From NCBI RefSeq assembly GCF_000195295.1, contig NC_015388.1, positions 1,550,001 through 1,614,000 on the forward strand: 64,000 nucleotides of DNA. Direction: 5' to 3'. Made by a program: the position numbers and the translations under genes. Positions within the stretch are counted from its first letter, which is position 1. Each line of letters opens with the position of its first letter. The stretch is from Desulfobacca acetoxidans DSM 11109. Its GTDB lineage: Bacteria; Desulfobacterota; Desulfobaccia; Desulfobaccales; Desulfobaccaceae. Shown here in pieces: positions 30,342 to 35,363 of this stretch. The notes below the pieces were generated by a model. The model saw only the letters and a list, made by a program, of their open reading frames with translations, was not told the DNA's origin and ran no database searches.

Positions 30342-30599
30342 TTGGCACATAAAAAAGCCGGCGGTAGTTCCCGCAACGGCCGTGACAGTCATGGGCAGAG
30401 GCGTGGCGTCAAGCGTTTTAGCGGTCAAATGGTCCAGGCCGGCAATATTTTGGTTCGCCAATTGGGCACCCGTATTCATCCGGGAGAGAATGTCGGTATG
30501 GGCAGGGATTACACTCTGTTTGCCAAGGTTACCGGGGTGGTAGCCTACGAGGCTTTTGGCCGCAACCGGAAAAGGGTCAGCGTCTATCCGACACCGTAA
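30342..30599 (+). CDS. rpmA: 50S ribosomal protein L27
   Basis: 85 aa starting with TTG after GAGGAGGG. It has the Gly/Arg-rich N-terminus [15 protein letters not shown] that reaches the peptidyl-transferase centre, then QRGTRIHPG-type and GRDYTLFAK segments. No N-terminal extension, so no Prp protease processing is needed. Confidence 0.97.
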
Positions 30600-30610
30600 A
30601 GGGGAACAGC

Positions 30611-31636
30611 GTGCCGCAACGGCGCTTTGCCGATGAAGCCGATATCGTTGTTGAGGCCGGGTGCGGCGGTGCTGGTTGTGTGAGTTTTCAGCGGCGGCGT
30701 TTTCAACCTAGAGGAGCGCCGGACGGGGGTGATGGGGGTGATGGTGGCGATGTCATCCTGGTAGCCTGCAGTTCGCTGCGGACGTTAGCCAATTTCCGCC
30801 ATCAACGTCACTTTCGGGCCCAAAAAGGCGAATCTGGCCGCGGTCAGTTAAAAAAAGGGGCACATGGGGCCAACTTGGAAATTCCTGTCCCTCCCGGTAC
30901 TATGGTGCTCGATGCTGGCAGCGGGCAATTATTGGCGGATTTGGTCAAAGTGCCTGATACCGTCGTAGTGGCTCAAGGCGGACGGGGGGGGAAAGGTAAT
31001 GCTCATTTCGGTTCTTCTCGATTGCGTTCGCCGCGTTTTGCCCAATCAGGCGAGCCGGGGCAGCAGCGCCAGCTCCGCTTGGAATTACACCTTTTGGCTG
31101 ACGTCGGTCTCATCGGGTCTCCCAATGCCGGTAAGACGACGCTTCTTGCCAGGCTGACGGCCTCCAAGGCCCGTGGCTCGAGCCATCCTTTCTCTACTTT
31201 AGAACCCAACTTAGGCGTCATCCAGCATGAAGAACATGATTCCATCATTGTGGCCGATATTCCGGGACTTATTACCGGGGCCCATTTGGGCAAAGGTCTA
31301 GGCGACCGTTTCCTGCGGCATGTGCAGCGTACTCGCCTGCTCCTGCAGGTGGTGGATGCTTCCGTGCTGGACCCGACGGCGCCCTGCGCTCCGGTAGAGC
31401 TCATTCGTAAAGAGCTGGGAACGTATGATCCTCAGCTGCTCCTCAAAAAGTATCTGGTGGTCCTGAATAAAATCGATCTGTTGTCTCAAGATTTCCCGCT
31501 GCCGGCAGTTATTGCCGCCTTACAACGGTGCGGTTGGCCCTGTTTGGCCCTTTCGGCGCTCACCGGTCAGGGCGTGGCGCGTCTGGAAGAAATGATCTGG
31601 TGCCAGTTAGAAACTCTTTCTGATGTTGCAGCCTAG
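30611..31636 (+). CDS. obg: GTPase Obg/CgtA
   Basis: A 341-aa ribosome-assembly GTPase. The Gly-rich Obg domain (residues ~8-160) precedes the G domain: P-loop GSPNAGKTT near 168, DIPGL (G3) and NKIDLL (G4) near 287. A GTG start lies 11 nt after the rpmA stop. The reading frame overlaps proB by 14 nt. There is no long C-terminal OCT extension. Confidence 0.96.
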   Translation: MPQRRFADEADIVVEAGCGGAGCVSFQRRRFQPRGAPDGGDGGDGGDVILVACSSLRTLANFRHQRHFRAQKGESGRGQLKKGAHGANLEIPVPPGTMVLDAGSGQLLADLVKVPDTVVVAQGGRGGKGNAHFGSSRLRSPRFAQSGEPGQQRQLRLELHLLADVGLIGSPNAGKTTLLARLTASKARGSSHPFSTLEPNLGVIQHEEHDSIIVADIPGLITGAHLGKGLGDRFLRHVQRTRLLLQVVDASVLDPTAPCAPVELIRKELGTYDPQLLLKKYLVVLNKIDLLSQDFPLPAVIAALQRCGWPCLALSALTGQGVARLEEMIWCQLETLSDVAA

Positions 31637-34090: not shown

Positions 34091-34735
34091 GTGCGCCTGG
34101 GACTTTTTGGGGGCACTTTTAATCCGATTCATTACGGTCACTTGCGGGCTGCTGAAGAAGCTGTGGAGATTCTGCAGTTGCAGCGCCTCCTGTTTATTCC
34201 GGCGGCTCGGCCCCCCCACAAGAACACCAAGACAGTAACCCCTTTTGCCATCCGGCTGGCCATGACCCGCCTGGCGGTAGCTGAGATCCCGCATTTTGAT
34301 GTCTCAGATATCGAAAATCAGCGGCCGGAAAAGTCTTACTCCATTGAGACCCTGCGGCTCTTTCGTCGGCAATTTGGCTCCGAGGTCGAGATTTTTTTCA
34401 TTGTCGGTCTGGATGCCATGCTTGAGATCGACACCTGGAAAGATTATCAAGACCTGTTTACCCTCTCTCATTTCTTTGTATTAGACCGGCCGGGCTACGA
34501 CCCCTGCGATTTGGAACGGATTTTACGCCGCAAAGTTGACCCGCAGGGTGTCTATCAGGCGGATGCCAGAGTTTTCCAACACTCGTCCGGTAATTGTATT
34601 TATTTTCGTCCTACTACCCATTTGGATATCTCTTCCAGTCGCATCCGCCTCCTGGCTAGTCGGGGGCAATCACTGCGTTTCCTCTTGCCGGAGGAGGTAA
34701 GACGGTTTATATTGGATAATAAGGTATATGGTTAG
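34091..34735 (+). CDS. nadD: Nicotinate-nucleotide adenylyltransferase
   Basis: A 214-aa enzyme of NAD synthesis. The nucleotidyltransferase signature GGTFNPIHYGH is at residues 7-17, PAARPPHK follows near 36, and the ISSSRIR motif is near the C-terminus. A GTG start lies 9 nt after proA. The order proA-nadD-rsfS is common in this lineage. Confidence 0.95.
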   Translation: MRLGLFGGTFNPIHYGHLRAAEEAVEILQLQRLLFIPAARPPHKNTKTVTPFAIRLAMTRLAVAEIPHFDVSDIENQRPEKSYSIETLRLFRRQFGSEVEIFFIVGLDAMLEIDTWKDYQDLFTLSHFFVLDRPGYDPCDLERILRRKVDPQGVYQADARVFQHSSGNCIYFRPTTHLDISSSRIRLLASRGQSLRFLLPEEVRRFILDNKVYG

Positions 34736-34750
34736 ATTAGAACATAGATG

Positions 34751-34850
34751 ATTTTCATGGTTCGTGGGTGGCCGATAGGTATTGGCAATTATTTAGAAAT
34801 GATTCTCAGGGGGAGCAGCAATCCTGGGGGCGAATACAAGCTTCACCCCT
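34751..34850. repeat. Two short dispersed repeats upstream of rsfS
   Basis: A copy of attttcatggttngtgggt (34751) and a gggggcgaatacaag/cttcacccct palindrome (34826-34850) related to the one at 16961. They separate nadD from rsfS, which are usually closer. Confidence 0.55.
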
Positions 34851-35057
34851 AGAGAGGTGATTTCAAGGTTAAAGAATGATTATTGAAGCATGGCAATTAT
34901 CTAGCATCTAAAAAAACGATTATTTCTTCTAAGAATTTGGACCACGAAACTCTATAGGTACGGGAGAAACCTTACGGCAGAGAGCAAATCCACTTTAAGC
35001 GCTCAGGAGAAGGTTGATTTATGCGTCAACAGTCTTAGGGAAAAAAAGGCTATTGAT

Positions 35058-35363
35058 GTGGTGGTCCTGGATGTTCGGCCGATGTCCTCCTTTGCCGACT
35101 TTTTTATCATCTGCTCCGGTGCCTCGCATCGGCAGGTGCAAGCTCTGGCCGAACATGTCGAAGCGGTCATGCGGCAGCACGGTTTGAGGCCTTTGGGGGT
35201 GGAAGGGTCGCAGGAGGCGCGGTGGATATTGTTGGACTGCAACGACGTCATCATTCATATTTTTTATCAACCATGGCGGGAATTCTACGATCTTGAAGGA
35301 CTCTGGCTGGAAGCTCCCCGGCAATCTGCGCCTGAGTCGATTGTCCAGGGTGCTGAAAGTTAA
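35058..35363 (+). CDS. rsfS: Ribosomal silencing factor RsfS, start uncertain
   Basis: Binds L14 and blocks subunit joining under starvation. The RsfS core is clear: SFADFFIICSGASHRQVQAL, then HIFYQPWREFYDLEGLW. The GTG at 35058 is the only canonical start in the open frame, but it begins inside strand one. The frame upstream reads LSAQEKVDLCVNSLREKKA, which looks like the normal first helix of RsfS. No ATG, GTG or TTG precedes it back to the stop at 34902. An ACG at 34974 stands 6 nt after GGGAGA and is one possible non-standard start; a sequence error or mutation is another. Confidence 0.88.
   Translation: MVVLDVRPMSSFADFFIICSGASHRQVQALAEHVEAVMRQHGLRPLGVEGSQEARWILLDCNDVIIHIFYQPWREFYDLEGLWLEAPRQSAPESIVQGAES

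Follow-up and report, generated by a model that had tools for sequence, protein, structure and literature searches.

The window, that is, the whole stretch of DNA analysed here, spans 64,000 nucleotides of Desulfobacca acetoxidans, whose genome (G000) consists of a single contig of 3,282,536 bases. It holds rplU, rpmA, obgE, proB, proA, nadD, rsfS and a gene for an M48 protease, in this order, proA being named from its place and length only. The nadD gene, which encodes nicotinate-nucleotide adenylyltransferase and starts with GTG, occupies positions 34091-34735 of the plus strand and adjoins rsfS on its upstream side. The rsfS frame, on the same strand, is open from an in-frame TAG at 34902-34904, its upstream bound, to a stop codon ending at 35363. 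Its product belongs to the RsfS / Iojap / YbeB family of ribosome silencing factors, with matches above the curated cut-offs of both TIGR00090 (119.2 bits, cut-off 56.9, covering residues 37-134 of the open frame) and PF02410 (115.3 bits, cut-off 21.6).

Reading the frame bears out two statements of a preliminary description of this sequence: no canonical start codon (ATG, GTG or TTG) lies between the TAG and a GTG at 35058-35060, and RsfS sequence is encoded upstream of this GTG, since the family core delimited by the TIGR00090 match (35013-35306) begins before it. The GTG, which is residue 52 of the open frame and follows a weak AAGG, lies within the core; a start there drops the first 15 matched residues, and we rejected it as the main start. 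The ACG behind GGGAGA that had also been described is indeed present: the Shine-Dalgarno-like GGGAGA lies at 34962-34967, its GGAG at 34963-34966, and the ACG at 34974-34976, with a spacing of 7 nt from the GGAG. With this ACG as the proposed start codon, the rsfS coding sequence would cover 34974-35363, corresponding to 129 codons and a stop, and what precedes the Shine-Dalgarno site in the open frame is probably not rsfS coding.

The spacer between nadD and rsfS is peculiar to this genome. The RsfS core lies 280 nt from the nadD stop, as against 54-57 nt in three congeners, none of which has the roughly 240 nt found here between nadD and the ACG. Pieces of a dispersed intergenic repeat lie at 34746-34857 (34746-34801 and 34824-34857), and parts of the spacer are matched at 33 other sites in the genome. 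In the three congeners, the TAA of nadD is in frame with rsfS and sits immediately upstream of the Shine-Dalgarno site. From about position 34946, the window resembles this arrangement: a stretch at 34946-34961 (AAACTCTAT...) is similar to the 3' end of the congeners' nadD, and the aligned stretch includes the Shine-Dalgarno site and partly the ACG. The likeness is weak to moderate, its score being reached by 3 and 4 of 500 mononucleotide shuffles for two congeners and by 221 for the third, which does not rise above shuffles. The ACG and its Shine-Dalgarno site survived separation from nadD, which argues against a dependence on tight coupling to nadD termination. Elsewhere in the order, one genome (G028, locus L045) has a nadD without its relatives' stop that runs into rsfS and ends 16 nt before the RsfS core.

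Conservation of the start region within the order

A search of 29 genomes of the order returned 27 rsfS loci, each of which we read; the two genomes without a match are 84% and 69% complete. Within the genus, all four genomes present GGGAGA or, in the three congeners, AGGAGA, and then ACG, with 7 nt between it and GGAG. Around the ACG, the two preceding codons are variable, and so is every one of the next eight. The nadD TAA of the congeners leaves 17-18 codons available for an rsfS start, and in two of the three none of them is canonical. Over the order, 16 of the 27 loci have ACG in the position 6-8 nt after GGAG and 12-15 codons ahead of the RsfS core, 4 have GCG and 2 have ACC. The rest are one CTG, found 24 codons before the core in G018, three ATG abutting the Shine-Dalgarno site, and an ambiguous case, G017, where TTG and GTC are both possible starts; NC(G/C) thus occupies the Shine-Dalgarno-spaced place in all 22 other loci. 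The second codon of the proposed coding sequence is GCN in 15 of these 22.

In the sister family, ACG follows GGAG by 6-8 nt in all six rsfS loci of genus g6, all three of g4, and the single members of g5, g7 and g8; in g6 and g4 it is constant while the codon directly before it varies. Altogether ACG is found in 6 of 11 genera, and it is invariant in the three of these six that have more than one member. At the equivalent place, the four genomes of g3 have GCG and the two of g11 have ACC. ACG accounts for 65 of the 417 threonine codons in the nadD and rsfS cores of the order, so that 16 ACG among 18 ACN codons at the start place would arise by chance with a probability of about 1e-11 counting sequences or 9e-5 counting genera, values that are uncorrected for shared descent or for the choice of site. 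The ATG of genus g2 (three genomes, L036-L038), which we counted as canonical, directly follows AAGGAG at a spacing of 0; such a zero-spaced ATG would be an unusual way of keeping initiation weak. In six of the 16 loci with ACG (L044, L050, L055 and three others), the codon immediately preceding it is ATC, which may be an older or second start.

Of the two options left by the preliminary description, a rare start codon or a mutation, this comparison with close relatives supports the rare start codon, given an ACG at the homologous spot in every genome of the genus and in 16 of the 27 rsfS genes of the order. The same conservation excludes a recent mutation, and a sequencing error is excluded by the recurrence of the arrangement in three separately assembled congeners. 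In most of the order, rsfS thus shares two features with genes of the infC/sigR type: the lack of ATG, GTG or TTG at the start position, and an odd codon kept in relatives at proper Shine-Dalgarno spacing.

In nine of the 27 loci, no canonical codon occurs between the upstream stop and the start of the core, its first codon included; in a further one, G009, none occurs within 40 codons. The other 17 have an in-frame ATG, GTG or TTG within 40 codons before the core or at its first codon, and except in G013 and G018 these lie upstream of the Shine-Dalgarno site, abut it, or have no scored Shine-Dalgarno match. In the two exceptions, a properly spaced site (GGAGG in G018, GAGG in G013) accompanies a GTG that lies just one or two codons ahead of the core; the pairing is absent from the two congeners of G013, and G018 is the sole member of its genus. 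Within Desulfobacca's own genus (g1), an ATG lacking a Shine-Dalgarno match lies seven codons after the ACG in G002, in a column that reads TTA, ATA, ATG and CTA across the genus. Nor is there a sign that relatives use the equivalent of GTG 35058: the congeners also have a GTG at or next to this place, and it falls inside the family match.

Shine-Dalgarno sites were scored against a generic anti-Shine-Dalgarno complement, which may differ from the 16S 3' end of these genomes. On this scale, the site in the window is moderate, since GGGAGA provides a four-letter exact match, no longer than that of the AAGG before GTG 35058. The site is weaker in g4 (GGGAGTGA), and in g3, g5-g8 and g11 it reads AAGGAG(G), AAGGGAGG or AGGGAGG. 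When 26 start regions were folded and compared with shuffles, z scores ranged from -1.09 to 1.84, 23 of them above 0; these scores, which do not address covariation, give no sign of a conserved RNA structure at the start site.

Other genes were read in the same way. Starts are canonical in 26 of 26 testable nadD loci (of 27, that of G022 being cut) and in 25 of 25 rbfA loci (of 26, a partial one in G022 being dropped), and hpf has ATG exactly at the first model position in all 27 matches above the cut-off, weaker matches being left out. The infC set comprises 25 full-length loci out of 28 listed rows, fragments of G025 and G020 being dropped. All 25 have ATC (23) or ATA (2) before CAG, and in 17 the frame is free of canonical codons; an ATG with its own Shine-Dalgarno site stands ahead of the ATC/ATA in G010. 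The infC gene of D. acetoxidans itself is L106 (G000:C1:2562608-2563105, minus strand). Because of these results, we consider that the procedure recovers the known infC case and leaves nadD, rbfA and hpf unflagged. Within the window, 33 open reading frames were matched in the part of a congener contig that was compared, and for 13 of them the match seemed to begin ahead of any canonical codon; we judge 11 of these, from their coordinates, to be alternate-frame or antisense shadows, the others being obgE and rsfS. The obgE gene (30422-31636) was rejected as a second start-less gene: its flag reflects the L27 frame read out of register, and a GTG at 30611 lies five codons before its TIGR02729 match.

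Starts of rsfS outside the order

We also read 107 rsfS loci from outside the order, where 270 genomes had a match, choosing among the better-scoring places: the 27 with the highest scores, 60 that cover a spread of families, and 20 picked in part for the odd starts of their families. Start scoring used 106 of them, G148 being dropped for its Ns; G054 was anchored on a protein match, not on the model. The best-scoring canonical candidate was ATG in 54 loci, TTG in 32 and GTG in 12, and the remaining 8 had none within 40 codons (4 of the first 87 loci, and 4 of the 19 usable loci chosen later). Across the rest of the phylum, TTG is a frequent start codon of rsfS, and a few lineages seem to have nothing but CTG, ATC or ATA available. 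The E. coli gene also starts with TTG (UUG; PMC10917681): this is the same gene with a weak start, although UUG, unlike ACG, is among the three canonical codons.

In the eight loci without a canonical candidate and in neighbours from their families, the Shine-Dalgarno site points to a non-canonical codon, as read by eye from its spacing and from conservation in the family. This codon is CTG in f58, f52, f44 and f92 (G218 and G300, G115, G170, G281), ATC in f9 (G136, G107, G035), and ATA or ATC in f28 (G090, G151, G177, G201, G246, G305). A canonical codon is present elsewhere in the frame in G107, G035 and G305, and far upstream in G090, G151 and G177. As G107 and G035 carry such in-frame codons in f9 and G080 has an ATG in f44, the ATC and CTG readings concern fewer genomes. 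The f28 loci (L153, L179, L180, L181, L182, L183) have their ATA or ATC behind a GGAGG-like site, mostly with GGCC just before the codon, and this start resembles the infC start of Desulfobacca's order. Judging from these sequences, rsfS seems to have acquired or kept weak starts repeatedly, and the ACG of Desulfobacca's order would be the extreme case.

A probable weak start codon and competing explanations

We consider it likely that ribosomes initiate rsfS at ACG 34974. The codon would be read as fMet by the ordinary initiator tRNA, aided by the well-spaced Shine-Dalgarno site. The 30 of 43 tRNA places that we read in the D. acetoxidans genome include three CAU tRNAs, one of which (L221) carries initiator features, and an ordinary Thr-CGT; no special initiator tRNA was found among these 30. 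On this reading the ACG would be no lesion. It would be a long-standing trait of the order whose weakness selection maintains, as with infC and Streptomyces sigR, and its poor initiation would presumably hold RsfS low. Against the reading stand the codon-by-codon measurements made in E. coli by Hecht in 2017, which reportedly rank ACG as a very poor start, the moderate Shine-Dalgarno site of the window, and those loci of the order that have another codon at this place or a canonical codon in frame nearby. Because Shine-Dalgarno sites are good in most genomes (moderate in the window) and the start regions show no excess structure, ribosomes should bind, and the codon itself should be the bottleneck.

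A weak start may also respond to the state of initiation. RsfS is reported in other species to bind uL14 and block subunit joining (PMC3400551), and IF3 to destabilise complexes on non-canonical codons (PMC5472188). We give about equal weight to the presence and absence of a further property, namely a sensitivity of rsfS translation, conferred by the ACG, to IF3 and to how fast the subunits join. Since joining is the very step that RsfS blocks, abundant RsfS would first affect a start that depends on fast joining, providing a negative feedback similar to that of IF3 on infC. GCG and ACC at the place of the ACG should be even worse starts, a hint that more than simple weakness is involved. One conceivable though very improbable extension is that the middle C of the codon is itself a signal: a C-to-U change in the mRNA, or a special A+.C pairing of the initiator tRNA, would turn these codons into a functional AUG, GUG or AUC, and the start would be switchable.

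The most serious competitor accepts the same start codon and differs from the selected weak start in function alone, so that the probabilities of the two overlap. Here the ACG would be used without any regulatory role: only traces of RsfS being needed, an ancestral ATG would have drifted to ACG, become fixed and been tolerated. We regard this as a real possibility, if clearly not the favoured one. The GCG and ACC of six genomes do look like further decay in a gene that is still kept. However, drift fits poorly with an ACG shared by six of 11 genera and constant in the three multi-member ones while the preceding codon turns over, with the retention of the Shine-Dalgarno site, with the restriction of ATG near this site to three g2 genomes at zero spacing, and with the recurrence of weak or non-canonical rsfS starts in other lineages. 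A start at some other non-canonical codon, or readthrough or frameshifting from nadD, is improbable. The nadD stop often overlaps the Shine-Dalgarno site, the near-cognate ATC precedes the ACG in six of 16 ACG loci, and g1 has its TTA, ATA, ATG and CTA seven codons downstream; yet the ATC is not conserved within g6 and g4, whereas the ACG is, and the g1 column has no well-spaced Shine-Dalgarno site for its only canonical member, G002. As a general mechanism, readthrough or frameshifting was rejected: nadD and rsfS occur in all three possible relative frames within the order, and in G000, G017 and G023 a distance of 215-285 nt separates the nadD stop from the core.

Use of GTG 35058 is more improbable still. 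It is the first canonical codon of the frame and has AAGG at a spacing of six nt, but starting there would cost the family match its first 15 residues, and the four genomes of the genus recognisably share the second half of what lies between ACG and GTG (KV..CV..L..KKA.D). Least credible of all is a sequencing error, a recent mutation or a pseudogene, for which we found no favouring evidence in the loci read: the layout recurs in the three congeners, 12 further genomes of the order have the ACG, and the RsfS core is intact.

Conserved non-canonical starts with strong Shine-Dalgarno sites are already known in infC, sigR, ccpN and cvfC1. The closest parallel is infC, the IF3 gene, which starts with AUU, AUC or AUA and is autoregulated through start-codon discrimination (PMC5472188); in Staphylococcus aureus its start is AUA (PMC13009471). 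Like rsfS, it is a translation-factor gene with a conserved non-canonical start behind a Shine-Dalgarno site. Unlike it, rsfS encodes a silencing factor that binds the 50S subunit, its ACG, GCG and ACC differ in the middle base, and its regulation is putative. Streptomyces sigR, described as starting with GTC and as repressed by IF3 on experimental proof, keeps its odd codon across a genus (32 of 34 GTC, 2 GTT; PMC5472188), as rsfS does, and has an extensive ribosome binding site; it differs in being a sigma factor gene, in its GTC and in the experimental proof. S. aureus ccpN (AUA) and cvfC1 (AUU) resemble rsfS in their conserved non-canonical starts, which in these two genes are aided by an extended Shine-Dalgarno site and lower the yield (PMC13009471); the genes and codons are different ones, and the name rsfS is absent from the main text of that article. 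Our literature search, based on top-ranked results and few subscription papers, returned no report of a non-canonical rsfS start and, for a part that was likewise limited to top-ranked results, none of a conserved bacterial ACG start.

Few bacterial genes are known whose non-canonical start is kept by selection, and the well-studied ones, infC and sigR, are regulated by initiation fidelity. A practical consequence would be that gene callers limited to ATG, GTG and TTG truncate or miss rsfS in many genomes of the order. The conserved odd codon behind a Shine-Dalgarno site points to a deliberately weak, possibly self-limiting translation of rsfS. If this is true, rsfS would be a second translation-factor gene with a selected non-canonical start, and the level of the ribosome silencing factor would be tied to the accuracy or speed of initiation.
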